A DNA stretch of 64,000 nt from Sinomonas cyclohexanicum (GTDB taxonomy: Bacteria; Actinomycetota; Actinomycetes; Actinomycetales; Micrococcaceae): positions 3,038,001 through 3,102,000 of the forward strand of contig NZ_AP024525.1 in assembly GCF_020886775.1 (NCBI RefSeq), in the 5' to 3' direction. The position numbers were made by a program, and so were the translations under genes. Shown piece after piece: positions 1 to 44,504 of the stretch (position 1 is its first letter; the number at the start of each line of letters is the position of its first letter). A model generated the notes under the pieces. That model ran no database searches. It was not told where the DNA came from and worked only from the letters and a program-made list of their open reading frames with translations.

Positions 1-110
1 CCGCACCCCCGAAGCGCTTTGGCTACTTCGTGGACGTAGCGGGTTCCGGCGTTGTCAGCATTTAGGCAGGGAAGGACCGGGGAGAGCATCACAATTCGAC
101 GTATCGTCAC
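1..110 (-). CDS. Glycosyltransferase N-terminus (partial, runs off left edge)
   Basis: Only the first 36 codons are in the window. A GTG start at 110 overlaps the TGA stop of the upstream ABC transporter gene (GTGA), which indicates translational coupling. The visible peptide begins MTIRRIVMLSPVLPCLNADN and continues with a GTRYVHEVAKAL segment. This looks like the N-terminal Rossmann strand and loop of GT-B glycosyltransferases (family 4 type), where a conserved glycine loop precedes a helix. The family call rests on this short stretch and on the surrounding glycosyltransferases; the rest of the protein cannot be seen. Confidence 0.6.
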   Translation of the reverse strand, partial: MTIRRIVMLSPVLPCLNADNAGTRYVHEVAKALRGC

Positions 111-1891: not shown

Positions 1892-1950
1892 GTCCCCCAG
1901 TATCAAGCTGCCCCAGAGAGCAGCCAGCGGCAACGAGCCAGCTGATTCTA

Positions 1951-3054: not shown

Positions 3055-3102
3055 GGCGTATCAGCGCTTCTGGATGACAGAGTGGACGACAGACAAGCGG
3101 CA

Positions 3103-3131
3103 GGCACGGTCCGATACTATCGGATCGTGCC
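3103..3131. promoter_or_regulatory. 29-bp near-perfect palindrome between divergent glycosyltransferase genes
   Basis: Left arm GGCACGGTCCGATA, a central C, and right arm TATCGGATCGTGCC match over 14 positions with one G/A mismatch. It sits midway in the 118-bp gap between the GTG at 3054 (minus strand) and the ATG at 3173 (plus strand). An operator serving both divergent promoters is the simplest reading; a hairpin in a leader RNA is the alternative. No poly-T follows, so it is a poor terminator. Confidence 0.5.
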
Positions 3132-3172
3132 GCCCCATCACGAGGGAGGCCGGAACAACCTGTAGGGGGGCC

Positions 3173-4276: not shown

Positions 4277-5123
4277 TTAGGAGTGCTCTGAGCCGCGCTT
4301 TAACGACCCTGGCAATCGATAGAAGATTGGGGTTTCTGTCACGAAGCCTCTCGAGCCACGCATAGCGATACCGCAGGTCGTTGATCTCGTCCTGCTGGCG
4401 GAAGATGTAATCGAAGAGGTCCTCAGCGTGTTGGCCGTAGAGCTCGAGATTGTTCCTCATCATGCGAGCACTATTGTCAATCAGTACCTTCCTATCGGCT
4501 CCTACAACGTCGTTGACGCTTGTCTTGTGCCCACGCCGGTAGAAGAAGTGGACACCGTCGAGCCTGAACGGGACGAGCCCGCGCGCAAGGATTTTCAAGA
4601 CGAAATCATGGTCCTCCCGCCCACGCATCACCTCGTCATAGCCGCCAACAGCAGCCCAGTCGCTCTTGCGAAACAAGCTTGTGGCGAAGATCAGGTTATG
4701 TATCAAGATGTGCCGCCACGAAAAATCCGGAAGGCCCCAAGGGGAGTTGATACTTCCGAAAAACTCTGCCCGACAGTAGACCATGCCGACCTCCTTCCGT
4801 TCGTCAAGGACCGCCACACCCTTTGCCACATACGGCGGAGCAATGATGTCGTCGGCCCCGAGCGGCAGAATGTATGGTCCCGAGGCCGCTTTGATCGCCG
4901 TGTTGAGCGCTCCGGCTGGTCCCATGTTGGCTTGGTGGATGACGGAGACGCGGTTCCAACCGCTGACTTCAGCGAGCACACCTCGAGTGGGAGCATCAGT
5001 TGACCCGTCGTCGACCACAACGACATCGAGGTCGGTGTGGGTCTGAGCGAGCGCGCTGCGCAGCGTCTCTGCCAGGGTTGCTCCATCGTTGAAGCAAGGA
5101 ACAACGACGGTGACGTGGCTCAT
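4269..5123 (-). CDS. Glycosyltransferase family 2 (GT-A fold)
   Basis: A 284-residue protein starting MSHVTVVVPCFNDGATL, the classic GT2 N-terminus. VVDDGSTD at about residue 40 and LPLGADD at about 90 give the nucleotide- and metal-binding acidic motifs. GREDHDFVLKIL further on matches the general-base ED segment. The ATG at 5123 follows GGGGAG with good spacing; longer upstream frames lack any family similarity. It probably transfers a sugar from a nucleotide donor to the surface polysaccharide repeat unit. The 3' end overlaps the convergent glycosyltransferase gene by 8 bp. Confidence 0.87.
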   Translation of the reverse strand: MSHVTVVVPCFNDGATLAETLRSALAQTHTDLDVVVVDDGSTDAPTRGVLAEVSGWNRVSVIHQANMGPAGALNTAIKAASGPYILPLGADDIIAPPYVAKGVAVLDERKEVGMVYCRAEFFGSINSPWGLPDFSWRHILIHNLIFATSLFRKSDWAAVGGYDEVMRGREDHDFVLKILARGLVPFRLDGVHFFYRRGHKTSVNDVVGADRKVLIDNSARMMRNNLELYGQHAEDLFDYIFRQQDEINDLRYRYAWLERLRDRNPNLLSIARVVKARLRALLIR

Positions 5124-5310
5124 GGAGTCTCCCCAAGTGATGCGAGTGCGCGACCGTGCGTGGCGGCGCCTACGTAATCGTAGAGCCTCGCTGGTGACGT
5201 CCGGTAAGATTTCGGAGGAGTGCGAGTAGTTGACGCGGTATTCATGCCTGCGCCGACCTTTAGCAGCATGAATGCCGCACAGTAGGTCCGTTAGTTCAGC
5301 AGGGGGCAAG

Positions 5311-6795
5311 ATGGGGAGCCGGAGCACCACCGCGCCAGACGTTCCCCGCTGGATGCGGTGGACACACCGCAGGCTGTCCTGGTCCCACCGCTCAGTTCTG
5401 ACCGCGGTCGATTTGGTTTGCGTGGTGTGGGCCGTCCTCGGCGCCCAGATCCTCCGGTTTGGAGCGAGCGACCCTTCGCTCGACGTCATGGTCCGTCAGG
5501 CTCCCTACACGGTGGTGGGCGCGGCTCTGGCAGTCGCATGGATCGTGATGCTCGAGCTCTGGGGCGCCCGGGACCCCAGGATTCTGGGCTACGGAACCAC
5601 AGAATACAAGCTTGTAACCACAGCCTCACTATGGCTGTTCGGTGGGATAGCGGTCGTCTCGTACGTATTCCAACTGGAGACCGCGCGCGGATACGTTGCC
5701 ATTGCCCTGCCTCTCGGTATCGCGTCCCTCCTATTTGGACGGTGGACGCTGCGCAGCGGGCTCGTGCGTAACCGCACGGCGGGCCGCCAGCTCTCCAGAG
5801 TCCTGCTGGTCGGCTCACTCGACACGGTGGAACACCTCAACCGCCAGCTGAGCAGGCACCCCGAGGCCGGCTACCGGCCGATTGCGGCCTTCGTGCCAGG
5901 CTATGAGGGCACAGACCTGGGCAACGGACTCGGTCGGCTTCCAGTGGTTGGAGGCGCCCCGTTTCTCGACGCCATCCTTCGAGCAATCGTCGAGACGAAG
6001 GCGGACACGGTCGCGATCTCCGGCGGTGCAGCTATCGATACCGAGACGCTCCGCCAGCTCGGCTGGCAGCTCGCTTCCCGGGACATTGCCATGATCATGG
6101 CGCCCGCACTCACGGACGTTGCCGGGCCCCGGATTCACACCCAGCCGGTGGCGGGCCTCCCCCTAATCCACGTCACGACCCCTAAGCTCGAAGGTGCCCA
6201 AGGCGTTGCGAAGCGGGGATTCGACCTCGCCGTCGCGGGTATCCTCCTTGCCCTCCTCGCCGTCCCCATGTTCATCGTCGCGTTGATGGTGAGAATGGAC
6301 AGCCCAGGTGCGGCACTGTTCCGCCAGACGAGGGTCGGGAAGGCCGGCGAGGGGTTCAGGATGCTCAAGTTCCGCTCAATGACCGCCGATGCTGAGTCCC
6401 GCCTCGACGAGCTCCACAGCGCAAGCGACGGCAATGGTGTGCTCTTCAAGCTGAAGAACGATCCTCGAGTCACGACATTCGGACGATTCATCCGCCGGTA
6501 TTCGATCGACGAGCTTCCCCAACTACTCAATGTACTTAAAGGTGACATGAGCTTGGTCGGCCCGCGCCCGCCGCTTCCCGCAGAGGTTGCAGGCTACGAC
6601 GACTTCGCCCACCGACGCCTCCTTGTCAAGCCCGGAATCACCGGCCTCTGGCAGGTCAGCGGCCGCTCCGACCTCTCGTGGGAGGATTCCATGCGGCTCG
6701 ACCTCTACTACGTTGAGAACTGGTCAATGATCCAAGACCTCATGATTCTCATGAAGACGATACGGGCCGTCATAACATCGAACGGGGCCTATTGA
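5311..6795 (+). CDS. Polyprenyl glycosylphosphotransferase (initiating sugar transferase)
   Basis: A 494-residue membrane protein that starts polysaccharide repeat-unit synthesis by moving a sugar-1-phosphate from a UDP-sugar onto undecaprenyl phosphate. About four N-terminal membrane helices come first. A CoA-binding-like Rossmann domain follows (LLVGSLDTVEHLNRQL), then a fifth helix. The catalytic bacterial sugar transferase domain carries FRQTRVGKAGEGFRMLKFRS, LPQLLNVLKGDMSLVGPRP, PGITGLWQVSGRS and an LDLYYVENWS ending. The ATG at 5311 is preceded by AGGGGGcaag; an ATG 39 bp earlier has no ribosome site. galE begins one base after its stop, so this is the head of a plus-strand operon. Confidence 0.93.
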   Translation: MGSRSTTAPDVPRWMRWTHRRLSWSHRSVLTAVDLVCVVWAVLGAQILRFGASDPSLDVMVRQAPYTVVGAALAVAWIVMLELWGARDPRILGYGTTEYKLVTTASLWLFGGIAVVSYVFQLETARGYVAIALPLGIASLLFGRWTLRSGLVRNRTAGRQLSRVLLVGSLDTVEHLNRQLSRHPEAGYRPIAAFVPGYEGTDLGNGLGRLPVVGGAPFLDAILRAIVETKADTVAISGGAAIDTETLRQLGWQLASRDIAMIMAPALTDVAGPRIHTQPVAGLPLIHVTTPKLEGAQGVAKRGFDLAVAGILLALLAVPMFIVALMVRMDSPGAALFRQTRVGKAGEGFRMLKFRSMTADAESRLDELHSASDGNGVLFKLKNDPRVTTFGRFIRRYSIDELPQLLNVLKGDMSLVGPRPPLPAEVAGYDDFAHRRLLVKPGITGLWQVSGRSDLSWEDSMRLDLYYVENWSMIQDLMILMKTIRAVITSNGAY

Positions 6796-6796
6796 A

Positions 6797-7810
6797 ATGC
6801 GCATCCTCATCACAGGCGGCGCCGGGTATCTCGGCACACACACCTGCCTTTCGCTCATCGCCGCTGGCCACCACGTCCACGTCTTCGACAGCCTGGTGAA
6901 CGCCTCGCGTGAAGCCGTGAGACGGACCTCGGAAATCGCCGGATACAATATCCCGGTCACTGAAGGCGACCTCCTCGACCGCTCCGCGCTTGCCGCCGCC
7001 ATCGCAGAATGCCGGCCAGAGGCCGTCGTCCATTTCGCCGGCCTCAAGTCCGTCAGCGAATCTAACTCCCAGCCGCTGCGCTATGTGACGAACAATGTCA
7101 CCGGAACCGTGCAGCTCCTCGAGGTGATGGATACCTTCGGAGTTCGGACCCTCCTCTTCTCCTCTTCCGCGACGGTATACGGAGTCACGGACACGGTTCC
7201 CACCCGAGAAGACCATACTCTTTCGGTCACCAACCCTTACGGCCGCACGAAGCTCGCGGTCGAGGAAATCCTGAGGGACCTCAGCGCTTCGGCTCCCGGC
7301 TGGAGAATCGGGATCCTGCGCTACTTCAACCCGGTGGGCGCCCACCCGACCGGCAGGATCGGCGAGGACCCACGAGGCGTCCCGAACAACCTTGTGCCCT
7401 TTGTGGGACAGGTCGCGGTTGGCCGTCGGGACACTCTTCACGTATTCGGAGGGGATTATCCCACTCCCGACGGGACCGGAGTCCGAGACTACCTACATGT
7501 CATGGACCTGGCCGACGGTCATGTCGCGGCGTTGGCGTGGGTCGCGGCCAAGCCGGGAGTGGGTGTCTGGAATCTGGGCACTGGAAGGGGCTACTCAGTG
7601 CTCGAGGTCATCCGGGCGTACGAGGAAGTCTCCGGACGGCCTGTTCCCTACACCATCATGGACCGGCGGCCCGGCGACGTTGCGGTGAGCTACGCGGACG
7701 CCACCAAGGCCGCTAAAGAGCTCGGTTGGAAGGCCTCTCGGACTCTCCACGACATGATCGAGGACCACTGGCACTGGCAGAGTGCGAATCCAACCGGGTA
7801 CGGGAAATGA
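6797..7810 (+). CDS. galE: UDP-glucose 4-epimerase
   Basis: A 337-residue short-chain dehydrogenase-fold enzyme that interconverts UDP-glucose and UDP-galactose, using bound NAD. Visible motifs are the N-terminal GGAGYLGTH nucleotide-binding glycine motif, VVHFAGLKSVSES, FSSSATVYG, the catalytic YGRTK (Tyr-x-x-x-Lys) and RYFNPVGAHPTG. Length matches bacterial GalE. It starts one base after the sugar transferase stop and its own stop overlaps the next glycosyltransferase start (ATGA). It therefore most likely supplies UDP-galactose for the polysaccharide made by its operon neighbours. Confidence 0.95.
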   Translation: MRILITGGAGYLGTHTCLSLIAAGHHVHVFDSLVNASREAVRRTSEIAGYNIPVTEGDLLDRSALAAAIAECRPEAVVHFAGLKSVSESNSQPLRYVTNNVTGTVQLLEVMDTFGVRTLLFSSSATVYGVTDTVPTREDHTLSVTNPYGRTKLAVEEILRDLSASAPGWRIGILRYFNPVGAHPTGRIGEDPRGVPNNLVPFVGQVAVGRRDTLHVFGGDYPTPDGTGVRDYLHVMDLADGHVAALAWVAAKPGVGVWNLGTGRGYSVLEVIRAYEEVSGRPVPYTIMDRRPGDVAVSYADATKAAKELGWKASRTLHDMIEDHWHWQSANPTGYGK

Positions 7811-8904
7811 GTATGCAGACAATTGCCCAAGAGCCACGCATTCTTGGGCTGTTCGACCACGCGGGCATCCTCGACCGCAGCGCACGCCGCCACGGTGCCA
7901 ACCAGGTGTCGGGCCCCTACCGAGTCGACCTGCTCGACGAACTCGGGTATGAGCTCCGCACCGTGCTTCCTGCGCGAGGCCGTCTTCATCGCAAGTTACG
8001 GGACGTCGTCGAGCACCGCTTGGGCCTCGAAATGGACATGGCTCTCCGTGCAATGCGCGAGGTGGCACGCGCAGATGCGGTGTTGGCGATGTTCGAGAGG
8101 CGGGCCGAATTCGTTGCCCGGCTTCGCCGTCGAGGCATCCCGCCTTTCGCAGGCCGACCTTTCTGGGCCATCTCGTGCTGGTGGGCCGACGAGATGCTGA
8201 GCATGGATCATGCCAGGCGCGCCCGCATCGCCCGAGACATCGAGGGCCTTGACGGGCTCGTGGTGTTCAGCGAGAACCAGAGAGCGATCTTTGCGGACGC
8301 CGGCGTGCCCGAGGCCAAGATCCACAGCGTCGACTTCGGCGTCGACCCCAAGTTCTACTCGCCCGGACCAGCATCAGCGCGACGATTCCAAGTGTTTTCT
8401 GCTGGCGTAGACCGGGGCCGCGACTTCGACTCGCTTGTCGGGGCGGCACGTCTCCTTCCTGACGTCCAGTTCGATATCTTTACCCAACCCGGCCGTATCC
8501 CGGGCTCAGTACCGACAAACATCACGCTCCATGCGCCAGTGGGCATCGTGGAGCACCGGGACAATCTGCGCGCTGCGGACTTGGTCGTGGTACCCACGCA
8601 CGATCTCGCTTACCCCACGGGACAGTCGGTGCTCCTCGAGGCATCGGGTTGCGGAAAGTGCGTTGCAGTGACGTCGACGAACGCAATGGAACAGTACTTC
8701 ACAGACGGGGTCACCGCACTCGCCATGCCACTTCACGACCCCCAGGGGATCGCCGAGGTGGTTGCGAATGCCATTAGTTCCCCCGGCCTACGGGCGGAAA
8801 TTGGCACCAACGCGAGGTCCGCAGTAGAGCAGCACTACAACTTCTCAAGAATGTGGACAGAGATCGGAGCGCTGATCACGACCCATACGAATCATTTCAA
8901 TTGA
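7807..8904 (+). CDS. Glycosyltransferase, family 4-like
   Basis: A 365-residue protein translationally coupled to galE by an ATGA overlap. An N-terminal segment of about 150 residues is poorly conserved. The C-terminal domain shows the GT-B pattern: VFSAGVDRGRDFDSLVGAA, NITLHAPVG, and YPTGQSVLLEASGCGKCVA, where the Glu of LLEA is the usual donor-ribose contact. The second in-frame ATG at 7813 is an equally possible start. It is the last intact gene of the sugar transferase-galE operon. A perfect 14-bp palindrome spans its stop codon. Confidence 0.82.
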   Translation: MSMQTIAQEPRILGLFDHAGILDRSARRHGANQVSGPYRVDLLDELGYELRTVLPARGRLHRKLRDVVEHRLGLEMDMALRAMREVARADAVLAMFERRAEFVARLRRRGIPPFAGRPFWAISCWWADEMLSMDHARRARIARDIEGLDGLVVFSENQRAIFADAGVPEAKIHSVDFGVDPKFYSPGPASARRFQVFSAGVDRGRDFDSLVGAARLLPDVQFDIFTQPGRIPGSVPTNITLHAPVGIVEHRDNLRAADLVVVPTHDLAYPTGQSVLLEASGCGKCVAVTSTNAMEQYFTDGVTALAMPLHDPQGIAEVVANAISSPGLRAEIGTNARSAVEQHYNFSRMWTEIGALITTHTNHFN

Positions 8905-9355
8905 AATCATTGTATAGATGACCAATCTTCTCTCGTCACCATCCGCAGGGGCTGGAGACGGACAGCAGGTGGTTCCGTCCAGATAGGCTGCCACCTAGAC
9001 GCCGAAGCCTTGCTGGCGGTGCTTGCCGAACCACTCCGTGATTCCCGGATCCGTCCGGGCGCAAGGGCGCCGAGTTCGCGGGGGTGAGGCAGGCATGTTC
9101 TGTCGGGCTAGGACGAGCACGCGACCTGCCGGACCAGGCTCAGGCCCTCCCGGTGCCCACGAACCCACGCCGAGCCTGTGATTCCGTGGATCCGACACAC
9201 AAGCTCGACGATCTCCTCACGGGTGAATTCTGTTGCAGAGTGATAACTTATCGAGCCTCTTCCGTGGCGCATTTGGAGGGTGGTAACTCAAAATTGCACC
9301 AAGAGAAGGGTCGATTCCTATGCCAGGCACCCGGGGGCAGGCAAATGAATTAAGT
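8905..9355. other. Intergenic region without an intact gene
   Basis: About 450 bp separates two opposed glycosyltransferase genes. Short open stretches exist on both strands, but none has a start with a ribosome site or recognisable protein similarity. The minus strand reads a fragment beginning EFTREEIVELVCRIHGITG before stops, which could be the ruin of a small gene. GC drops near 9230-9350. I see no terminator. Confidence 0.4.
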
Positions 9356-10351
9356 TCAGTGAAAACAATTCATACGGTAGGGCGCGCGAAGTGGGTTATC
9401 GATCTGAACTCGAGGACGAACAGAATCACCAAAATCCGAATCCCGTGACCCAGCTAGATAATCAACCCAGAGACGATACCTAGCCGCGCTGGTGACAGAT
9501 GCATGCTCACGCCAATGCCCACCAAACTCGCCTTGAACCCCAGGCGTGGCGTCTATGGCCGCAGCTCCTGAAATTACCTTCCTCTCAAACTGCTCAAACG
9601 AGCGATAAGGGAAGTGAATTATACGCAGCGAAACCTCCACCGGGCCAGGATGCGTCACCGCATGGTTTCCGGGTCCCACCCAAGTCCATGAAAGTGCCCT
9701 GAATGCAGACTTCAACATCAGCCCTCGCTCGGATGTCACGGTGAGTTTATCCTCAATTGCAGGCTCCAACGTCCCCTTATCTCGGCTAGGAAAAGCGTCG
9801 AAAATTTCTGCGCGAACCACACCCGAGCGAGAATTGCGGAGATGATCCGCCAGGGTGCCATCGGGTGCCGTCCAAACCTCGTCCGCGTCGAATGGAACAA
9901 TCCAGTCAGCACCGGCCTTAACTGCCAAGCGCGATATATAGGACATCGCACGTGCCTGATGGTAGGCATCGCTGCAATTCTGACCGACAAACACGCGCGG
10001 TTCCTCCGATGCGAGATCTCGGAGAAGCTCGTAGGTTCCGTCAGTGGACTGATGGTCGACCGCTATGACACCGTCGGCACCTTCCCTTAGGAGGTGTCGG
10101 ATCACCGGGGCTATAATATCCATTTCATTTCGGACCATTGTGACAGCCCATACCGAACCCCGCTTACGCATTGATCTAGGAAGGCCGGCTACGGAGATCG
10201 CGCGCTCGACCGAACGTTGAAGGGGCTTAAGGCGCGCTAGGTGATCGCGGATGACTGCCATGCTGTCGATCATACAGGCCAGATGCGGGTTGGCGCGAAT
10301 TTCGATCGTCCTAGGCCGGTCGCTAGCTTGGGGACGAGTTCCCAACACCAC
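9356..10351 (-). CDS. Glycosyltransferase family 2-like protein
   Basis: A protein of up to 331 residues. WAVTMVRNEMDIIAPVIRHL, AVDHQSTDGTYE and IVPFDADEVW give the nucleotide-sugar and Asp-x-Asp metal motifs of GT-A glycosyltransferases of the glycosyl_tranf_2_4 type. It likely decorates the surface polysaccharide. The start is uncertain: a GTG at 10351 lies about 10 bases after a TATAAA-like -10 box on the minus strand (10361-10366), which would fit leaderless translation. An ATG at 10273 is the alternative. The gene and its AT-rich upstream region stand out from the surrounding high-GC DNA, a sign of recent transfer. Confidence 0.75.
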   Translation of the reverse strand: MVLGTRPQASDRPRTIEIRANPHLACMIDSMAVIRDHLARLKPLQRSVERAISVAGLPRSMRKRGSVWAVTMVRNEMDIIAPVIRHLLREGADGVIAVDHQSTDGTYELLRDLASEEPRVFVGQNCSDAYHQARAMSYISRLAVKAGADWIVPFDADEVWTAPDGTLADHLRNSRSGVVRAEIFDAFPSRDKGTLEPAIEDKLTVTSERGLMLKSAFRALSWTWVGPGNHAVTHPGPVEVSLRIIHFPYRSFEQFERKVISGAAAIDATPGVQGEFGGHWREHASVTSAARYRLWVDYLAGSRDSDFGDSVRPRVQIDNPLRAPYRMNCFH

Positions 10352-11618
10352 ACCAAATTGTTTATATTAAACTTGCACATCAACATCTATATCAACTGGG
10401 CTTAAAATAGCGCATGAAGGAGCTGTCAAGCGGCGCGCGTGCAGAGCATGAAGCGTGTTGAGTACTCTTTCTTTGCGGTTCCCGAGGAATCTGGCTCTCC
10501 ATCGATGGGGTGGTGCTAGGTGTGCAGGGCGTCTGCAAGTCAGCGAGTTTCCTCAGGGAGGTCCCGACCCGTGAGGCCTGCCCGGTGCGGACCTAGGACC
10601 TGGCTTCAGGAGTCCTGAGCCTGGCCGGCGACATCCGCACCAACACCGGCTACGCCAGCAAGAGCTCCCATTGCCGCTGAACTCCTCGTCTGGGACACTG
10701 CGCAGTTGCGCGAGGCGCCGCGCCGAGGCCTCCTCGAGTCCGCTGGAGAACCCAGAACCTCGGCGACTCCACCAATACGTGGAGCACGACGTGCAGGGCC
10801 GTTCAAGCTCCTCCCCACGAATGAGGACGCAAGGTTCCCTGAACTCGTTTGAGGGCTATGGGCACATTCGAGGGCGGGCACGGGTCGTCCTCCTTGTCGT
10901 GTTCGTGTTGAACTCTCCAGAGCAATGCGGCGCCAGGCCATGAGGATGGTGGCGGCCGGGCGGGTGACGAGGATGAGGGGCTCGGCGGGCGAGTCGACGC
11001 GGTGCAGGATGCCGACGCAGAGCGGCGCCGCATGACAATCCCGGCGGCCGTCACGTTCTACCCGGTGGCGGTGACCCACCCTCGCACACTGCTGTATGCG
11101 GCCGATGAAAGTGAGGGTGACGCTGAGCAACAGTATTGGCAATGAGCATGACGGTCTCGGTGGCGGTCATGGACGTGCACACCGGTCAGCGGTCGAGCGC
11201 ACGGCCAGAGCATGGAGCCGGGAACGCCAACAGAACCACTTTGCTGCACGCATCGCCGCCGCATACAGAGGGGAACGGTCTGGGCAGGGACTCGATGACG
11301 GGTCGCGCCCCCTGCAGCGTGGTCACGGCTAGACGCACCTGGTCGGTGAGCTCACGCGTGATCTCCCGGCCGGTGCGGGCGCTGCCCTTCCGGTCATCGC
11401 GTTCCTTGAAGGCCTCGTCCAGGTAGCGGGCCGGGGCGAGCTGGCCGTCGACGGCGGCCTTGATGACGTAGTGGACCAGCCAGAGGCAGGTGACGACGAC
11501 CAGACCCCCCGGTGCCGACCTCTACGAGTGGGAAGCCTGGGAGGAAGTCCTGCACTGGCACCTCCTGGGATAGTCCGGGGAAGGGTGAGGCCCCGCACGG
11601 TGGCGGAGCCTGGGTACG
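10352..11618. other. Decayed region with coding fragments only
   Basis: This 1.27-kb stretch has no intact gene I can support. 10352-10430 is AT-rich and carries the promoter of the gene on its left. Beyond that the DNA is GC-rich and several minus-strand pieces have coding-like codon bias, for example a segment reading VGILHRVDSPAEPLILVTR near 10930-11020 and one reading RRLAQLRSVPDEEFS near 10700. They lie in different frames with no start or stop that joins them. It reads as the remains of one or more genes at the border of the polysaccharide locus. Confidence 0.45.
11186..11521 (-). pseudogene. Coding fragment without a start, unknown family
   Basis: The minus strand stays open for about 111 codons, with nearly every third base G or C, and reads CLWLVHYVIKAAVDGQLAPA followed by RYLDEAFKERDDRKG and REITRELTDQV. 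The stop is at 11186-11188. No ATG, GTG or TTG lies near the point where similarity-like sequence begins, and a stop at 11522-11524 closes the frame upstream. I therefore read it as a truncated gene, not an intact one. The family is not recognised. Confidence 0.4.
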
Positions 11619-12509
11619 ATGACGGGTATGGGACTCACGGATGCCGCTCGGCAGATGAAACACGCCGTGCTGGTGGCCAGGAAGCGGACACGGCAGGGCG
11701 CTGTTGGCGTCTGGGATCATGTTTTGCGCGCTCGAGCTGCGAGCACCGAGTACCGGTTCGACGTCGATTCGCACCGGAACAAGTACGGGGAACTGCCGCG
11801 CATGTACTTCCTGCATCGCAGTACCGACCAGACCACGTCTGCCACCCGTGAAGCGGCCCGTCGTATCTTCTGCTTCTGGACCGGTGACAACGACATGAGC
11901 GATGCGCGCCAATCCGCCCTGGCCGCGATGAGGGACCGGGCTGGCGTGCCGATCGAGTTGGTGACCGCGGATAACCTGCAGGACTGGGTTGTGGATGGCC
12001 ACCCGGTCCACCCGATGTACGAGATGCTGTCCTATGTCCACCGGTCCGACTATCTGCGCGCTTACTTCATGGCACACCATGGCGGGGGCTACTCCGACAT
12101 CAAGGCACCCACTGCAACCTGGGACGCCGCCTGGGAACACTTCGCCGATCAGGAGGTGTGCGTCGTCGGGTACCAAGAGCGATCGTCACGCTCCTGCGGG
12201 GGTGACGTCCACACTCCTCTCGGACGGGACATCCACCGGAACTTCTCTCGGCTCGTCGGCCTTTCTGCGTTCATCATGCGTCCCGGAACACCGTTCGCCT
12301 TCGGGTGGTTGCAGGAGATCGAGCGTCGGCTGGATTACTATGCGGGAGAGCTCTCCCATGCGCCCGGAGGGACCTGGGGCGACGCCCCTGGATACCCGTT
12401 GCGGTGGGTTGAGATCGGAGCGGATGTCTTCCACCCACTCCAGTTGAAGTACCTGCCCCATCTGAGGCAGGACGACCGCATCCTGCCGCTTCTCGACGGG
12501 CACCGCTGA
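11619..12509 (+). CDS. Capsular polysaccharide synthesis protein (GT32-like glycosyltransferase)
   Basis: A 296-residue protein with the GT32/Caps_synth pattern: IFCFWTGDNDMSDARQSALA near residue 85, PIELVTADNLQDWV, HRSDYLRAYFMAHHGGGYSD with the Asp-x-Asp-like acidic site, and a C-terminal segment around PFAFGWLQEIERRLDYY. Proteins of this family add hexoses to capsule or cell-wall glycans, so the gene probably belongs to the same polysaccharide locus although it stands alone. The start could be the ATG at 11619 or the one at 11628; neither has a strong ribosome site. Confidence 0.78.
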   Translation: MTGMGLTDAARQMKHAVLVARKRTRQGAVGVWDHVLRARAASTEYRFDVDSHRNKYGELPRMYFLHRSTDQTTSATREAARRIFCFWTGDNDMSDARQSALAAMRDRAGVPIELVTADNLQDWVVDGHPVHPMYEMLSYVHRSDYLRAYFMAHHGGGYSDIKAPTATWDAAWEHFADQEVCVVGYQERSSRSCGGDVHTPLGRDIHRNFSRLVGLSAFIMRPGTPFAFGWLQEIERRLDYYAGELSHAPGGTWGDAPGYPLRWVEIGADVFHPLQLKYLPHLRQDDRILPLLDGHR

Positions 12510-33284: not shown

Positions 33285-34556
33285 CTACAGCCGGCGGCGC
33301 AGCCGGCGGAGGAAGTCGTCGTGGGCCACGGCGAACGCGATCTCGGCGTCGCCGGAGAACACGCCGGCGGAGAGGATGTCGTCGCGGCCCAGGATGCGGC
33401 GGCACATGCTGTCGAGGGTGAGGACGTCGTGGGTGAAGGAGCTGTGGGTCGTCGCGCCGGAGGAGGACCGCGGCGAGCCCATCGCCACGCTCCACACCGC
33501 CCCCACGGGCCCCGCGTCGGGGTCCGTCCCGAACCAGCGCGCGAGCGGGGAAGGCTCCACGCACTCCTGCAGCCCGAGGAGGCCGCCGCCGTCGTCCGGC
33601 TCGAGCGCGTTGAGGATGAAGTGCAGCATGGATCCCTCCTCGTAGAGCCCGAGCAGCCGGTCCCGCTGCGCTGTTTCACGGCCGAGGGAGAACATGGTGA
33701 ACGCCCGCACCGCCGCCGATTCCATGAGCGGCATGAACTCCTCGGTGAACTGGCGGATCGACATGGCCGGCGCGAGGAACTGGACGGTCTGCAGCGTCAG
33801 CCCCCGCCGCACGAGCTCGCTCACGAACGCGGACTGGAACTGCGCCCCCGCGCTGTGCCCCACGGCGTGCAGCGCCGTGCCGGGGTTGGCCCGCACGAAC
33901 GCGTCCACCCGCTCGGCGACGTAGCGCCCCGCGCCCCCGTCCACGAGGCTCACGTCCCGCGCGTCGTCCTTCATCTGCTCCCACAGCCCGCGCCCGTCGA
34001 CGAGCCGGATCACGTCGTCGAAGATCCGGTCGCGGCGCGTCGCGGCGCCGTCGGTGACAATCCCGTCGGTCGTGCTCGGTCCCGGGACGCGCACGACGTC
34101 GGCCGTGTCGCCCTCCGCCGTCGGCTCGCCCTGGGTGCCGTACCCGGCGGGTGGCGCGCCGCCGCCGTCGGGCCCGTCGCTGTGCCGCCAGGAGCCCATC
34201 CAGTGGGCGAGGCGCTCGGCGAGGACCTCGTTGAGGGTGGAGACGAGTCCGGTGTCCCAGACGAAGTAGACGGGGTAGATGCCGTTGGCGAGCCACCAGG
34301 GGATGGCGCGGAGCGCGTCGCCGAACGCGTAGCCGCGGTTCACCAGTCCGCCGTGGGCCCAGAAGACGATCGGCACGAGGCCGCCGCGCTCGCGCTGGAA
34401 GCGGGGCAGATGGAGGCGGAAGATCGCGTCGACCTGCTTCGCCGTCGTGGCGGCGGGCCCGCTGCCCGCGAACTCGTGGCCGCCGATCCCGATCACGTGC
34501 CGGACCCACCACGACGTGTCACTGTCGGCGTGCGCGGGCCTCTCCTGGGACGCCAT
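33285..34556 (-). CDS. Large alpha/beta hydrolase-like protein
   Basis: A 423-residue protein. VPIVFWAHGGLVNRGY resembles the oxyanion-hole HG motif, LHAVGHSAGAQFQSAF is a clear GxSxG nucleophile elbow (Ser in GHSAG), and TLQTVQFLAPAMSI follows as in lipase-like folds. About 100 residues between these blocks form an insert rich in Gly and Thr. There is no signal peptide, so it is probably cytoplasmic; substrate unknown. The ATG at 34556 begins MASQERPAHADS; no better ribosome site is found upstream. Confidence 0.72.
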   Translation of the reverse strand: MASQERPAHADSDTSWWVRHVIGIGGHEFAGSGPAATTAKQVDAIFRLHLPRFQRERGGLVPIVFWAHGGLVNRGYAFGDALRAIPWWLANGIYPVYFVWDTGLVSTLNEVLAERLAHWMGSWRHSDGPDGGGAPPAGYGTQGEPTAEGDTADVVRVPGPSTTDGIVTDGAATRRDRIFDDVIRLVDGRGLWEQMKDDARDVSLVDGGAGRYVAERVDAFVRANPGTALHAVGHSAGAQFQSAFVSELVRRGLTLQTVQFLAPAMSIRQFTEEFMPLMESAAVRAFTMFSLGRETAQRDRLLGLYEEGSMLHFILNALEPDDGGGLLGLQECVEPSPLARWFGTDPDAGPVGAVWSVAMGSPRSSSGATTHSSFTHDVLTLDSMCRRILGRDDILSAGVFSGDAEIAFAVAHDDFLRRLRRRL

Positions 34557-34611
34557 GGATTCACGGTACTCCCGGGGCGGACGGGCCGGCATGGGCCTGT
34601 CCCCCGGGCGC

Positions 34612-34640
34612 TCACGCATCAGATCGCATCTGATGAGTGA
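34612..34640. repeat. Palindromic element, copy 1 (12-5-12)
   Basis: TCACGCATCAGA - TCGCA - TCTGATGAGTGA; the arms are complementary at 11 of 12 positions. It lies in the divergent spacer between the hydrolase and a small membrane protein. The same architecture recurs at 55334-55362. Confidence 0.7.
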
Positions 34641-34754
34641 GTGCCCGCTGGGTGGTATCTGTTCCGGCCCGTCTCCGGGACCTTGAGCCCTTGTCCGCCC
34701 GACGGGCCACGGCAACGCTGGTCCAAGGGACAGCCGTGCGGGAAGGAGATGGCC

Positions 34755-38107: not shown

Positions 38108-38205
38108 CGGGTGCAAGTCTACCTGTGGACAACCAGAAGTCTGTGTTCCCCGATGCACACGCATGGCCAAGAATCGGCACCGCTTTGCCGCTCGATCACC
38201 GCACT

Positions 38206-38255
38206 CATATGACACACCGTATGATCAACGGCCACTCGTTGCGGCCTGTCATATG
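38206..38255. promoter_or_regulatory. Long-range inverted repeat upstream of glmM
   Basis: CATATGACA (38206-38214) and TGTCATATG (38247-38255) are perfect complements 32 bp apart. They lie about 100 bp upstream of the glmM start, near the edge of the lower-GC insert. They could be a paired operator or mark an insertion boundary. The rest of 38256-38364 shows nothing clear. Confidence 0.35.
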
Positions 38256-38364
38256 CGTGCGGGCCCTGCGGCCATGCGGAAATCTCAGAAAGCTTCGACG
38301 GCCTACGCCTAGACCTAAACCCCGCCGAACCGGGGAGGCATCCTGCGCTGCGGGACGCCTCGCG

Positions 38365-38688
38365 TCAGCCCTCGCAAACGGAGCGACGCACAGGCTCGAA
38401 GGCCCAGAGCCAGCACACCGTCGTCGAGCGGTGGTACCAGCGAGTCGACTTGGAGTTGAAGGTCAGGCCGTGGTGGCCGCGCCGAATCACACCGAAGGTC
38501 ACCGCTCGGCCGATGAGGCCGGCTAATCCAGTGCACGATAACTCTGGATCGCAGGAGTCCAGGGACCCGACGGCGACCAGATCTGAGATCGCCACCGAAC
38601 CGGACATGGCAGGATGCTTGTGGTTGATGAGCGGTCGGGCTGCGCGGCTCGCCCCTCGCATCGAGAGCGAACCATACAGGTGCACCAT
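38365..38688 (-). CDS. Possible small ORF downstream of the CHAT-associated pair
   Basis: A 107-codon frame from ATG 38688, beginning 31 bp after the membrane-protein stop on the same strand. Third codon positions are mainly G or C, favouring real coding over the overlapping longer frame 38315-38704. The product has a hydrophobic stretch GLAGLIGRAVTFGVI and an aromatic, Arg/His-rich C-terminus. No ribosome site and no recognised family. It could be a third member of the CHAT locus or chance. Confidence 0.3.
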   Translation of the reverse strand: MVHLYGSLSMRGASRAARPLINHKHPAMSGSVAISDLVAVGSLDSCDPELSCTGLAGLIGRAVTFGVIRRGHHGLTFNSKSTRWYHRSTTVCWLWAFEPVRRSVCEG

Positions 38689-38719
38689 TCGGATGCGCCA
38701 GCAACGGAACCCTTTGGCG

Positions 38720-39268
38720 TCACGGGGTAGGTGCCGGTGTGGCGGGGGTGGTCGTGCCGCCTGACGGCGACGGTTGTTGTGGACTCATGCCACTGCTGGT
38801 GGCAGAGGTCATCCAGAGCGCGCAGATCAGGCCGACCAGGCAGCAAGCCGCTCCCAAACCGGCCCACTTCTTCGACCGATCAAGTTGTTCGAGCGCGGTA
38901 GCTGCTTGTTGTGCCCGGTACATCTCGACCGAGTTGTACTCTTGAACGATTTGCGGCAAATTAATGCTCGTTGCAGTCGCGCCCCCGCCGATTCGCAACG
39001 TGTATATGAGCGCCCTGGCCACCAAGATCACCCCGGCACCAAGGGTGAGTGCGAGCGCAAGGCGCCAGTACCACGCAACGCCGCTGGCGAGCTGGGTGCC
39101 AACGAAGGCCAGAATGCCCGTAACACCGGACACTAGCAAGACGTATCCGCTGCGCCAGACTTTGACATCGGCCAGCGCGTGCTCCCATACACTTCCCTGC
39201 AGGTGTTGGAAGGCCTCCACATCAGCTCGGGTTGGGCGTCGTCGGTCCGGCGGCAACAGTCCCGGCAT
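38720..39268 (-). CDS. Three-helix membrane protein of the CHAT locus
   Basis: A 182-residue protein. A soluble N-terminus (PDRRRPTRADVEAFQHLQG, EHALADVKVWRSG) leads to two adjacent membrane helices (YVLLVSGVTGILAFVG and LALALTLGAGVILVARALIY). A 45-residue helical linker follows, rich in Glu/Gln (VEMYRAQQAATALEQLDRSK), then a third helix (AGLGAACCLVGLICALW) and a Pro/Thr/Ser tail. It starts 4 bp after the zinc-ribbon gene stop, so they form one operon divergent from the CHAT gene. Family unknown. It could be a membrane effector or protease target, an inference from context alone. Confidence 0.65.
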   Translation of the reverse strand: MPGLLPPDRRRPTRADVEAFQHLQGSVWEHALADVKVWRSGYVLLVSGVTGILAFVGTQLASGVAWYWRLALALTLGAGVILVARALIYTLRIGGGATATSINLPQIVQEYNSVEMYRAQQAATALEQLDRSKKWAGLGAACCLVGLICALWMTSATSSGMSPQQPSPSGGTTTPATPAPTP

Positions 39269-39272
39269 CGTC

Positions 39273-39620
39273 TCACTCGCCCGTGGTCGTCGGCTGGACA
39301 AGGGCATAGCTCGCGCCGCAGCCACGCGCGCCGCTGGGTGCACCAGGGTGGGCCACGGTGCAGTCACATATGAAATCCGCCCAGGTGGCAGCGGCGACAT
39401 GTGTTGTCGGCGTCCCGCGGATCGACGTGACTGGGAGTTCGAGAGCCCTAGTCTGGCTAAACGAATGCCCGCACCGCGGGCACGGCCCGTCAATGCGCAA
39501 TGAACTGACCAAGTCGTTCTTGACGTAGAACAGCTGGACAGTGCCCGCCTCCACTAGGGCGGCGGCTTCGTCGTCCAACCTGGCGGACGAGACGTCCTCA
39601 AAGTTTAGTTCAGGCGTCAC
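39273..39620 (-). CDS. Zinc-ribbon-like small protein of the CHAT locus
   Basis: A 115-residue protein. Cysteines are arranged GPCPRCGHSFSQ, then ICDCTV about 40 residues later, then RGCGASY, suggesting one metal site built from CxxC and later Cys residues. The N-terminus (MTPELNFEDVSSARLDDEAA) is acidic and soluble. No recognised family. It is the first gene of a minus-strand operon and starts 95 bp from the GTG of the divergent CHAT gene. A TATGCT-like -10 box for it lies near 39668. Confidence 0.65.
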   Translation of the reverse strand: MTPELNFEDVSSARLDDEAAALVEAGTVQLFYVKNDLVSSLRIDGPCPRCGHSFSQTRALELPVTSIRGTPTTHVAAATWADFICDCTVAHPGAPSGARGCGASYALVQPTTTGE

Positions 39621-39715
39621 GCCGGGTCCCCTCCGTCGGCCAATGTCAATGAGTAGCAGTCCTAAGCATAATCATCACAGAGTCGACGTGCCTGAACGGT
39701 GGAACAATCGGAACC

Positions 39716-42700
39716 GTGACCAACGATCGCGATCGCAGCATCCATCCGCAAGAACCTGATCTGGACGAGTTTGAGACGGTTCCGCTAGACGAGGTTATGC
39801 GGATAGTTGATCAACTGGATTCGGCGGATCCGGGCTGGGTTGACCTCCAATGGCACGCTGCTGATGCCCTGCATGATCTCTACCTGGAGGACGGGGTGGC
39901 GAGCGGTCTCAACGAGGCGATCCGGCGCGGCCAGCTAGCCATTGCCGCCCAGAATGGGCAGTCCGCAGCGCACCTTCATGATCTGGCCCTCATGCTGTGG
40001 GATCGGTACGAGGCAACGCACCATGACAACGATCTGGAGGAGTACATCCACCTGCTCGAAACCGCGCTCGCACTGCTTGACCGAGATGACATAGATACCG
40101 AGCGACGGGCGCAGTGTCAGGCCAACCTCGCCACCGGTTTGGTCAGCCACAGCCGCTACGAGGCGGCTGACGAGGACATCGACCGCGCGGTGGCTCTATG
40201 GGAGACTGCTCTAGTCTCTGGACAGCTCGACGCCGATGCACAATCCGGGATCGCAGCGAACCTCGCCCAGGCGCTGAGCCGCGAAGGGGCAAGCGAACAC
40301 GACCTCCGCCGGGCCGTGAGCTACGGACGCCAATCCCTGCAGGTTGCAAATGACGATCCGGAAGCGGCGGCGCACAACGAGTTTGCCGTGGCTGCGGCGC
40401 TCGCCAGCTTGCACAACGTCGTCGAGGATGAGGGCCTACTCGGCGAAGCCACAGACCACGTGCGCCGTGGCCTCAACTGTCTCGGCCCCACGCATCCGGA
40501 TGCGCCGGGGTTCACAGCCAACCTTATCGGTCTGCTGCGCCAAGAAGCTCGCGAAACCAACGACGCCGCTCCGCTGGCTGAGGCAGTTCGGCTTGCCCGT
40601 GGCACATTGGCGCAGACATCGGACGGCGACCCGGATCGTGTCTTGATCCTCACCACAGCGGCCGCCGCGATCAGTGAGGCGTCCGTGCAGAACGATGACT
40701 TGTCGCTTCTCGAAGAGGCACTGGCGCTCTACCGTCACGCCGTCGCCATGGCCCCAGACATGTCACACGAGCAAGGAGTGGCGCTGATCAATATGGCATC
40801 CGTCTGCCGGGATGGCAACGAACGTCTCGATGCTCCGGATCTCGTCGACGAGGGCATCGATGCCGGGGAACGTGCGCTCAGCATCTTTCTAGAGCCCGGA
40901 TTGCGCCGTGCCGCCGCGCTCACCGCCACCAGCAACTGCCTCCGTGACCGTTTCATCTTGGCTGGCGAAGTTGCCACTCTCGACTGCGCCCTCAGCTACG
41001 CCGAGAATGCCCTCACGTTCACGCCCGAGCGACATCCCGAGCGAGCCGCACGACTAACCAATCTGGCCGTGCTGCTCTCCGACGAGTTCGCCGAACGCGC
41101 CGACCGCGCCCAACTAGACAGAGCGATCGTTTTGTACCGGGAGGCGCTTGATGCCAGCGAGCGGGTCGGCGTCAGGGTTCCCGAACGTCTGAACGATTTG
41201 GCACTCGCGCTACGGGACCGGAGCAGGGACGCAGGCAATGCGGATGATCTGAACGAAGCCGTCGACTTGGCCGAGAGCGCGCTGGCGGGCAGCCGCCCCG
41301 GTCTACTAACTTGGGCTGGCTACGCGAACAATCTTGGCAACGCTTTGGCCGAGCGATACGAGTTGGACGGCAACCCAGACGACTTGAACCGTGTGGTGGA
41401 GCTGTTTAGAAAGGCTTTGGCCGATGCAACGGGCAGGGTCCACGAGTGCTCCGGTTACGCGACCAATCTCGGCCTCGCCCTCGCGACCCGCGCAAAGGTC
41501 ACCGGTAATGTAGCGGATTTCGACGAAGCCCTCCTCAATCTCTCTCGATCGATCGATCTATTGCCGGCTGAGCATCCTGATCGGGCCTACCGGCTCTCGA
41601 ATCTGGCGGATACCTACCGGCAACGCTCGATCATGTTTGATGATGGCGGCCGCACCGAACGGGCCGGAACCGATGCGGTCGCGGCAGTAGATACGGCCGA
41701 GGACGCTGTCATGGCGGCAAGGGCGAGTGACGCCCGACTCCTGCCCGCACTGTCAAACCTTGCCGAAGCACTGCGCTGGAGGCGTTCCCTCACGCCCGGG
41801 TCGACCACCGCAGCCCGGATCATTGAGGTCCAGCGCCGCGCCGCCACGCTCGTCCAAATTACGCCAGCCGAGAAGTTCGGGCAGGCTGGGCGGTGGGCGC
41901 GGGACGCACAGGACGAGGGTGCACTCGTAGAGGCGCTCGAGGCTTACGGACTCGCTGTCATCCAGACGACCGAGGTGGCTTGGATTGGCCTGAGCGTTGC
42001 GGAACGGCTGGACCTACTGCGCGAGATGAATGAGGTGCTTACCCGTGCAGTCGCCTGCGCCGTACGGGCCGGAGAGCCTTGGACGGCCGTGGCCTGGGCC
42101 GACCATGTGCGTTCGGTGCTATGGCGGCAAGGCCTGCAGGCAACCGCACTCAGCACGGGCCGGAACGATGCCCGGTTAGCCGGACTGTCCGGGCTCGACC
42201 ACGAGCCCGCGGGCGAGGCGCCCAGTGTCAAACGGCACCGCCGTGAACGACTCAGGCAATTGGCGCACACTGAACGCGATGCTCTGCGCGTAGCGATCGC
42301 TACTGCAGAGGATTATCAGTCCTTAGCATTTCCAGGGGTTATCGTCCTGCTAGTGCCGGGCGAAGACACATCCTGCGCGGTGCTCATGCGCGAGCACGAG
42401 GCTCCACGACTGGTGAACCTTGCGCGCGCACCTAGGGGCGAACTCATCGTCCGCATCGAGACACTGGGCCGAGCATCTGTTGCCTTCGGCGACAACAGTG
42501 GACCCGCCCACGAACTACGCGCCCGCCACGCGATCTTCGACTGCCTCGACTGGCTCTGGGATGCCGTTGCCTCACCGATCTTGGACGAAATCGCTTTCAA
42601 CGCGGACGAACGGCCACAGGTGTGGTGGTCACCAGTCGGGGAATTCGCCCTGCTACCGCTTCATGCAGCGGGCCATCACCCGCGTAAGAGCGGGCAGTAC

Positions 42701-43450
42701 GCTCCAAAGAATTTATCCGCCCCGGACCGCGCGCGGTCATCGTACCTGCCGATCATCCTTGCCCCTCGTTCTCGAACCCCACGGGCACCGGCCGCGCCGG
42801 GAACCCTCCTCTACGTCTCAGCGAATGACGCTTCGGGCGGTCTGATCCATCTGGAGGAAGAGCAGGAGGCCATTCGATCGGCCGTACAGCGCATTCCGAT
42901 TGGGGAGCTGACTGAACAAGACGCGACGGTTACCGCAGTCCGCGAAGCAATCTCTCATTGCAGCTACCTACATATCTCAGCGCACGGATCAACAACCGCT
43001 GAGGACTCCCTGCAAGTCGGCTTTCAACTATCTGACGGCGTGTTCACGTTGCGCGACCTCGCTCGGTGCAGGGCGGACACTGGAATGCTGGCGGTACTTC
43101 TGACCTGTGGCTCCGCGACTGGCGATAACCAGTTTCCGAACGAGGCACTCCATGTCGCGGGTGCAGCGCAACAGGCAGGATTTCCAGATGTCATCGCCGC
43201 CACCTTGCCGGTACGTGATGCGTCGTCGGTGCCGGTGGTGCATGCAATTTACAGGGCAATTGACGCTGCCCCGGACTCTGTATCTGAAGTGGTCCCCACG
43301 GCATTGGATGCTGTCGTAGAAACGTTGCGACGGGACCCCCGCACGAGCCCTGACCCCCTAAGTTGGGTGCCCTACGCGCATTTCCGGGCAGGTCTCACCC
43401 CGCACGCCTCAGCGGAACCAGATTCTGCTAAGTCAGTTCTGGCGATCTGA
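39716..43450 (+). CDS. TPR-CHAT caspase-like protease
   Basis: A 1244-residue protein. Residues about 50-760 are tandem helical repeats of TPR type, seen as recurring patterns such as ANNLGNALAERYELDGNPDD and ATNLGLALATRAKVTGNVAD. The C-terminal third is a CHAT (caspase-HetF) domain: VWWSPVGEFALLPLHAAG, EQEAIRSAVQRIPIG, the catalytic His in YLHISAHGSTT (His1090) and the nucleophile in AVLLTCGSATGDN (Cys1131). It ends in LSWVPYAHFRAG. Related TPR-CHAT proteases (Csx29 of Craspase, gasdermin-cleaving bacterial proteases) act in anti-phage defence; no gasdermin or Cas gene is seen here. GTG start at 39716 with a weak ribosome site. GC is lower than in flanking core genes, indicating acquisition. 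Confidence 0.9.
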   Translation: MTNDRDRSIHPQEPDLDEFETVPLDEVMRIVDQLDSADPGWVDLQWHAADALHDLYLEDGVASGLNEAIRRGQLAIAAQNGQSAAHLHDLALMLWDRYEATHHDNDLEEYIHLLETALALLDRDDIDTERRAQCQANLATGLVSHSRYEAADEDIDRAVALWETALVSGQLDADAQSGIAANLAQALSREGASEHDLRRAVSYGRQSLQVANDDPEAAAHNEFAVAAALASLHNVVEDEGLLGEATDHVRRGLNCLGPTHPDAPGFTANLIGLLRQEARETNDAAPLAEAVRLARGTLAQTSDGDPDRVLILTTAAAAISEASVQNDDLSLLEEALALYRHAVAMAPDMSHEQGVALINMASVCRDGNERLDAPDLVDEGIDAGERALSIFLEPGLRRAAALTATSNCLRDRFILAGEVATLDCALSYAENALTFTPERHPERAARLTNLAVLLSDEFAERADRAQLDRAIVLYREALDASERVGVRVPERLNDLALALRDRSRDAGNADDLNEAVDLAESALAGSRPGLLTWAGYANNLGNALAERYELDGNPDDLNRVVELFRKALADATGRVHECSGYATNLGLALATRAKVTGNVADFDEALLNLSRSIDLLPAEHPDRAYRLSNLADTYRQRSIMFDDGGRTERAGTDAVAAVDTAEDAVMAARASDARLLPALSNLAEALRWRRSLTPGSTTAARIIEVQRRAATLVQITPAEKFGQAGRWARDAQDEGALVEALEAYGLAVIQTTEVAWIGLSVAERLDLLREMNEVLTRAVACAVRAGEPWTAVAWADHVRSVLWRQGLQATALSTGRNDARLAGLSGLDHEPAGEAPSVKRHRRERLRQLAHTERDALRVAIATAEDYQSLAFPGVIVLLVPGEDTSCAVLMREHEAPRLVNLARAPRGELIVRIETLGRASVAFGDNSGPAHELRARHAIFDCLDWLWDAVASPILDEIAFNADERPQVWWSPVGEFALLPLHAAGHHPRKSGQYAPKNLSAPDRARSSYLPIILAPRSRTPRAPAAPGTLLYVSANDASGGLIHLEEEQEAIRSAVQRIPIGELTEQDATVTAVREAISHCSYLHISAHGSTTAEDSLQVGFQLSDGVFTLRDLARCRADTGMLAVLLTCGSATGDNQFPNEALHVAGAAQQAGFPDVIAATLPVRDASSVPVVHAIYRAIDAAPDSVSEVVPTALDAVVETLRRDPRTSPDPLSWVPYAHFRAGLTPHASAEPDSAKSVLAI

Positions 43451-43466
43451 ACGTGGTTGAGATGGT

Positions 43467-43495
43467 GATCTGCCGTCCATCGGACGCCGCAGATC
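43467..43495 (+). terminator. Hairpin after the CHAT gene
   Basis: GATCTGC CGTCC - ATC - GGACG CC GCAGATC, with a two-base bulge, 16 bp after the CHAT stop. There is no T-run, so it is a modest terminator candidate. Confidence 0.5.
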
Positions 43496-43559
43496 AGACA
43501 CGACAAGAATCAAGCTCACGCGAGGAGGAAACCTTGCTCTGAACTGCCGCCTCCGCCCC

Positions 43560-44504
43560 CTACGCCGCCCCGCCGCCTTCCCGCAGCACGGGGAAGCGCG
43601 GCGTGTACGTCTCGCCCTCCTCGAGGACGTCCGCGGCCGTGCCCACGATCAGCGGGTCCGGGGCGTGCGCGACCTTAAGGTCCTTCCGGTCGTAGGGGGT
43701 GACGTGGAGGACGTAGCGCATCGCCTCGAGGCGGGCGCGCTTCTTGTCGTTGCTCTTGATGACGGTCCACGGGGCGTCCCCGGTGTCGGTGTAGAAGAAC
43801 ATGGCCTCGTTGGCCGCCGTGTAGGCGTCCCACTTGTCGAGGCTGGCCAGGTCCGTGGGCGAGAGCTTCCACTGCTTGACCGGGTCCGTCTCCCGGGAGG
43901 CGAAGCGGTTGAGCTGCTCCTCGCGGCCCACAGAGAACCAGAGCTTGTGGAGGCGGATCCCCGAGTTGACGAGCATCCGCTCGAACTCCGGCGCCTCACG
44001 CATGAACTCGTGGTACTCGCCGGGGGTGCAGTACCCCATGACGCGCTCCACGCCGGCCCGATTGTACCAGGAGCGGTCCATGAGCACGATCTCCCCGCCG
44101 CTGGGCAGGTGCTGCACGTAGCGCTGGAAGTACCACTGCGTGCGTTCCTCGTCGGTGGGCTTCTCGAGTGCCACCACGCGGGCCCCGCGGGGGTTGAGGT
44201 GCTCGTTGAACCGCTTGATGGCGCCGCCCTTGCCGGCCGCGTCGCGGCCCTCGAAGAGGATGAGGACCTTCTGGCCGGTGTCCTTGACCCACAGCTGGAG
44301 CTTGAGGAGCTCTATCTGCAGGGCGCGCTTCTGCCGCTCGTAGGCGGGCCGGCCGAGCTTCTTCTCGTACGGGTAGCCGTGGCGCCACGCGTTGGGGTCG
44401 GCGCTGGGCTTGCGCTTGTGGTCCACCTTGCCGATCTCGCGCAGCTCGTCGAGCTCGGCGGCGTAGTCCTCGGTCACGGAAAGGCGGGGGTCCTCGTGGG
44501 CCAT
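43560..44504 (-). CDS. ppk2: Polyphosphate kinase 2
   Basis: A 314-residue PPK2 enzyme that moves phosphate between polyphosphate and nucleotides. The Walker A is FEGRDAAGKGGAIKRF and the lid/Walker B region VLMDRSWYNRAGVERVMG. LHKLWFSVGREEQLNRF and a DKWDAYTAANEAMFFYTDT segment are further family blocks. I chose the ATG at 44504 (MAHEDPRLS); the frame continues upstream only into repeat sequence. The conserved aromatic SND-KKRAR region is present near residue 240. Confidence 0.93.
   Translation of the reverse strand: MAHEDPRLSVTEDYAAELDELREIGKVDHKRKPSADPNAWRHGYPYEKKLGRPAYERQKRALQIELLKLQLWVKDTGQKVLILFEGRDAAGKGGAIKRFNEHLNPRGARVVALEKPTDEERTQWYFQRYVQHLPSGGEIVLMDRSWYNRAGVERVMGYCTPGEYHEFMREAPEFERMLVNSGIRLHKLWFSVGREEQLNRFASRETDPVKQWKLSPTDLASLDKWDAYTAANEAMFFYTDTGDAPWTVIKSNDKKRARLEAMRYVLHVTPYDRKDLKVAHAPDPLIVGTAADVLEEGETYTPRFPVLREGGGAA

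Follow-up and report, generated by a model that had tools for sequence, protein, structure and literature searches.

The 64,000-nucleotide stretch of Sinomonas cyclohexanicum DNA analysed here (contig NZ_AP024525.1, positions 3,038,001 to 3,102,000; 'the window') carries, between glmM and ppk2, a 5.4 kb insert that holds three genes: one for a protein with a CHAT protease domain and, divergent from it, those for a Cys-rich putative zinc (Zn)-ribbon protein and a predicted three-helix transmembrane (TM) protein. The features are as follows.

39716–43450, plus strand: TPR-CHAT protease gene, 1244 residues, GTG start, Pfam CHAT match with E 1.1e-24
39273–39620, minus strand: gene of the Cys-rich Zn-ribbon protein, 115 residues, with a Cys/His pattern common to its relatives
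38720–39268, minus strand: gene of the three-helix membrane protein, 182 residues, start codon ATG at 39268, stop at 38720, family match to relatives
38129–43564, strand not applicable: lineage-specific insert, delimited by the break of blastn homology to four congeners

The original prediction, made from the sequence of this locus, had described a TPR-CHAT protease with an intact dyad, and the open reading frame (ORF) coordinates, the Pfam match and an alignment of the dyads agree with it: the CHAT domain spans residues 943–1223, and His1090 (codon 42983–42985) and Cys1131 (codon 43106–43108) line up with the dyads of 24 relatives. The TPR half of the label fared less well, the matches being sub-threshold (TPR_10, 20 bits versus a cut-off of 27.5). 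The two divergent genes were likewise found as described, with 95 bp between the starts of the CHAT and Zn-ribbon genes, and the membrane gene begins 4 bp past the Zn-ribbon stop. The Zn-ribbon protein exhibits the motifs GPCPRCGH, CDC...HPG and GCG; the likely Zn ligands in them, which relatives share, are CPxC, CxC-x3-H and the GCG Cys. Neither small protein has a meaningful match to a Pfam, NCBIfam or PADLOC family (for the TM protein, PADLOC returned only one row of 9.6 bits, E 0.12), and the same holds for representatives of the wider families, six relatives giving zero rows against the PADLOC models at E 0.01. A possible third small ORF (38365–38688, minus strand) is not supported as part of the system, since its best match in 48 other loci has E 0.15; no frame in that interval matches the C-terminal domain of the membrane family described below.

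The insert is not a fixed part of the genus core. In 4 of 14 congeners (G037, G592, G591 and G121) ppk2 adjoins glmM directly, and blastn homology to the window ends at 38122–38128 and restarts at 43565–43580 (loci L090, L091, L092 and L094); in the remaining ten, ppk2 lies outside the ~1.5 kb shown per locus, so that these ten are uninformative on the empty site. As had been noticed by eye, the three genes have a lower GC content (0.63–0.64, and 0.68–0.74 at third codon positions) than ppk2 and glmM (0.69–0.73 and 0.97). A Pfam scan of the four insert ORFs found no integrase or transposase. The CHAT gene is the sole match in its own genome and gave a match in 1 of 196 other genomes of the family (E 1.6e-4, with at most three candidates scored per genome), while the Zn-ribbon occurs, among 15 genomes of the genus, only in that of the window.

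The linkage of the three genes recurs across actinobacteria. With tblastn, CHAT, Zn-ribbon and TM genes were found adjoining and in the same direction on plasmids of Streptomyces sp. SGAir0924 and Mycolicibacterium arabiense, and a profile search matched 27 of the 150 genomes searched in one Streptomyces-like genus (two of the 27, G377 and G547, being seeds). This first set comprises 29 non-seed places, of which 28 were kept after L076, which lacks a Zn-ribbon gene, had been dropped; the TM gene adjoins the Zn-ribbon gene in 27 of the 28, the exception being L064. A second set, searched with TM proteins only in named genomes, has the Zn-ribbon gene adjoining in 12 of 12 loci, and a third, for which two fused proteins served as queries, gave 18 new places, 14 of them real, with both genes present in all 14. 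The Zn-ribbon gene is always 5' of the TM gene in the tabled loci, frequently with overlapping stop and start; in L014, L016 and L017 the two are fused into a single polypeptide. Three gene orders are seen: divergent, CHAT-Zn-TM and Zn-TM-CHAT. At L064 the Zn-ribbon gene (8059–8481), for which no TM gene was found, neighbours a Dak1 gene (Pfam) and a frame that by eye resembles a 2'-5' RNA ligase.

After removal of four duplicates (L077 = L050, L081 = L052, L150 = L082, L158 = L079), a protease gene lies beside or near the Zn-TM pair in 44 of 50 non-seed loci from the three sets (43 of 49 if L086, which is nearly identical to seed L003, is left aside). The original prediction had set the co-occurrence of the small genes with CHAT homologues as a test, and the pairing proved recurrent; it is not specific to CHAT, as 25 loci carry a CHAT protein, 19 a C14 caspase-HSP90 protein, one a remnant and five no protease. 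The C14 partner combines, in one protein, the caspase with iHD-CE/HD-CE, an HSP90-like part and a wHTH domain; its arm is spread over more than one frame in L073, and L068 retains a C-terminal remnant only. The first set contributes 14 CHAT and 10 C14 loci, one remnant and three loci without protease, while in the second, which is biased to CHAT because its queries were CHAT-linked TM proteins, CHAT is near in 11 of 12 loci (L087 has none). The first calls rest on phmmer comparison with seed domains, with Pfam run on 7 of the 14 CHAT and 4 of the 10 C14 proteins; third-set assignments were made with profiles built from the first sets, and the caspase domain was checked afterwards. At L156 (2995–14239) two same-strand C14-HSP90 genes flank the pair.

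Outside this count stand the seeds: the window, L003 and L004 (CHAT), L015 (C14-HSP90), L014, where an EAD1-trypsin gene is convergent to the pair, L016 and L017, where a divergent gene is annotated as an S8/S53 peptidase, and L013, where no protease was found. The L016/L017 peptidase has D, H and S motifs, no Pfam match and an NCBIfam QhpE score (34 bits) below the cut-off of 165. The catalytic His and Cys are kept in all 27 CHAT proteins checked (25 aligned, including that of the window, and two of the third set), in line with the expectation that relatives would have an intact dyad, and in all 21 C14 proteins checked (8, 3 and 10, L156 counting two). Because the active sites are retained, proteolysis is suggested to matter to the system.

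The linkage exceeds chance by far. With 129 CHAT and 17 iHD-CE matches counted across 61 genomes of the Streptomyces-like genus, a rough hand estimate puts the chance of finding CHAT within 6 kb of a random place at ~0.3% and that of iHD-CE at ~0.04%; for the observed 14 and 10 of 29 the binomial tails are then close to 4e-28 and 2e-27, and although the rates are rough and the relatives non-independent, neither closes the gap to chance. Pairs lie beside at least 7 of the 129 CHAT matches and, with one seed included, at least 6 of the 17 for iHD-CE. Moreover, the membrane proteins sort by protease. On a tree of 43 TM proteins from the first two sets and the seeds (L068 labelled C14; L064, L076, L087, L088, the duplicates and the third set omitted), CHAT linkage changes twice, versus a mean of 14.0 upon shuffling, and C14 linkage twice, versus 10.6, with none of 500 shuffles as low as observed. 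The S8 and trypsin fusions group together in a supported clade, and the window protein lies inside a 16-row CHAT clade (support 97/89). The correlation between TM and CHAT distances is r 0.78 (n 25).

Hydrophobic segments of the window TM protein are at residues 43–61, 70–88 and 136–154, and Lys plus Arg number 6 in the N-terminus, 1 in loop 1, 5 in loop 2 and 0 in the tail. This distribution suggests that the N-terminus and the 47-residue loop 2 are inside and the tail outside; the tails of relatives are more charged, and the charge rule is less clear for them. The structure model of the relative in L079 (pLDDT 74.5, pTM 0.49; the other four models 65–67) combines three long helices with a C-terminal β domain of five strands; this domain, which most relatives have, carries two conserved Cys.

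A small module found next to proteases of differing folds, its fusions, the kept active sites and the sorting of TM clades point to an effector on which a protease acts. We thus propose, tentatively and as a reading that is quite possible yet short of probable, that the Zn-TM pair is a membrane effector under the control of interchangeable proteases, resembling gasdermins in its logic without having their fold, and probably directed against invaders. The CHAT protein would be sensor and protease in one, its N-terminal arm sensing a trigger and thereby freeing the CHAT site. The Zn-ribbon protein may keep the TM protein inactive, or couple it, at the cytoplasmic side, until CHAT cuts either the Zn-ribbon or the cytoplasmic parts of the membrane protein, which would then assemble and breach the membrane so that cell and invader are both stopped. 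The earlier proposal of a membrane protein released or activated by its protease fits this pattern, from which we infer cleavage, a pore or leak, and a role in defence. The pair would accordingly be the portable effector half, with CHAT and caspase-HSP90 proteins as alternative sensor halves, EAD1-trypsin and S8 proteases probably as further ones, and the whole a three-gene conflict cassette moving between genomes. It is tempting to speculate further, if with more doubt, that the pair constitutes a second class of protease-triggered membrane executioner, unrelated to gasdermins and captured by at least two types of caspase-superfamily protease (CHAT and C14) and probably by a trypsin and a subtilisin too, with the membrane protein adapting to each in the course of evolution.

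Several observations weigh against this proposal. The five loci without protease (L048, L064, L075, L087 and L148) include, in L048 and L148, an orthologous solo Zn-TM pair (TM ~88% identical, a common neighbour 63% identical), and the count of 44 admits a CHAT gene 4.2 kb off with ORFs between (L079), one with an intervening ORF (L054) and one split over two frames (L088). The trypsin pairing is known from one locus and the S8 pairing from two near-identical plasmids. Most CHAT genes lack a Zn-TM pair, so that CHAT has additional partners, for example the genes annotated as CATRA in L006. Four further Actinomycetota genomes encode TM-like proteins beside which neither a Zn-ribbon nor a protease gene was found, and the ancestral role of the TM fold may therefore be a different one. 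The window TM protein itself sits on a long branch (2.87) and has a Pro/Thr-rich tail in place of the C-terminal domain. Since linkage alone predicts correlated trees, the correlation of TM with CHAT distances speaks for shared inheritance and not for contact. As to defence, the recurrent cassette was borne out and the defence label was not: no relative was found in viral contigs with one query, no PADLOC model matched the small proteins, and the window copy stands alone among housekeeping genes and not in a defence island.

Two of these points have observations beside them. At the L088 locus (8150–10477, from Microtetraspora) the CHAT matches fall into two neighbouring frames and the TM gene is broken; the cassette is apparently decaying. 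The TM-like proteins (L113, 5480–6223; L114, 7666–8241; L115, 7685–8275; L116, 7869–8396), three from other classes of the phylum and one from the same class, may be relatives of the membrane partner that occur alone.

As the main alternative, the roles might be reversed, with the Zn-TM pair a membrane sensor or anchor that recruits and activates the protease, which would itself be the killer in the manner proposed for EACC1. System 4 as proposed by Kaur 2020 (PMC7159879) has the same logic of a membrane protein with a caspase, one type of pair serves several proteases, and a sensing role is conceivable for the C-terminal domain that most TM relatives have and that charge alone places outside. 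We nevertheless consider this rather unlikely: the C14 partners already possess large sensor-like arms (iHD-CE, HSP90-like, wHTH), the CHAT partners long N-terminal ones, and neither the window protein nor those of L052, L066, L073 and L074 have the C-terminal domain, so that the module does not depend on it.

The carriers include many multicellular Streptomyces, and binding of partners or nucleic acid is common among Zn-ribbons; both would suit a role outside defence, in which regulatory proteolysis during envelope or developmental signalling frees the Zn-ribbon to act elsewhere. Patchy occurrence (27 of 150 genomes of the Streptomyces-like genus, 1 of 15 of that of the window), an insert with empty sites and the existence of plasmid copies make such a role improbable. 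That the genes are chance neighbours on an island could be read from the window's genome alone, and is highly implausible given that the linkage recurs in 44 of 50 loci and in three gene orders.

If the effector proposal is correct, protease-gated membrane killing arose in bacteria with a non-gasdermin effector, the swapping of proteases before one executioner can be traced within one genus, two unnamed families (Zn-ribbon and three-TM) gain a testable role, and likely substrates are named for orphan CHAT and caspase-HSP90 proteins.

Elsewhere in the window, positions 1–12000, of mostly lower GC content (0.56–0.66), probably form a polysaccharide cluster, with glycosyltransferases, a sugar transferase, an epimerase and an ABC transporter encoded there, and a 476-residue ORF (33285–34715) has zero Pfam matches at E 0.001.

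Among known systems, Csx29 of Craspase likewise combines TPR and CHAT and is reported to act on a partner, Csx30. Identity with Csx29 is rejected: the window protein gave no row for its model NF041237 at E 1 (a Streptomyces relative, P0007, scores 23.9 bits against a cut-off of 300), and the insert holds no CRISPR partner and no other large ORF that could be Cas7-11, for which the search covered the insert and not the rest of the genome. CATRA loci resemble ours in that a CHAT gene lies beside two smaller genes, as on the Streptomyces plasmid of L006 (2761–8619), where CHAT is divergent from two genes annotated as CATRA and not as Zn-ribbon and three-TM proteins, which gives this type of protease a different set of partners; no CATRA paper was found in the open-access literature. 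EACC1, according to PMC7159879, is an actinobacterial protein with one TM helix, encoded at the 5' position and proposed to act with a caspase-type peptidase beside it. Our membrane protein has three hydrophobic segments, unlike EACC1, and is accompanied by a Zn-ribbon gene and by proteases of several folds; with regard to an EACC1-type caspase, the C14 partner P0019 scores 40.1 bits against NF047832 (cut-off 140), and the window protease is of the CHAT type.

The closest parallel is with the bacterial gasdermins, whose adjacent proteases are C14, CHAT and trypsin according to the legend of a PLoS Pathogens review (PMC9612521). They share with our loci a small effector gene beside interchangeable proteases, and it is this neighbour pattern, together with the interchange described here, that points to a protease-released membrane effector. 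They differ in the effector, for which the L079 model predicts three helices and a C-terminal β domain and not a gasdermin fold, and which is paired with a Zn-ribbon protein. A description of the Zn-ribbon/three-TM pair was not found in the open-access literature. Hence, a conflict system switched by proteolysis is of a known kind, while the Zn-ribbon and three-TM partners, and the interchange of proteases beside them, appear as far as searched to be new.

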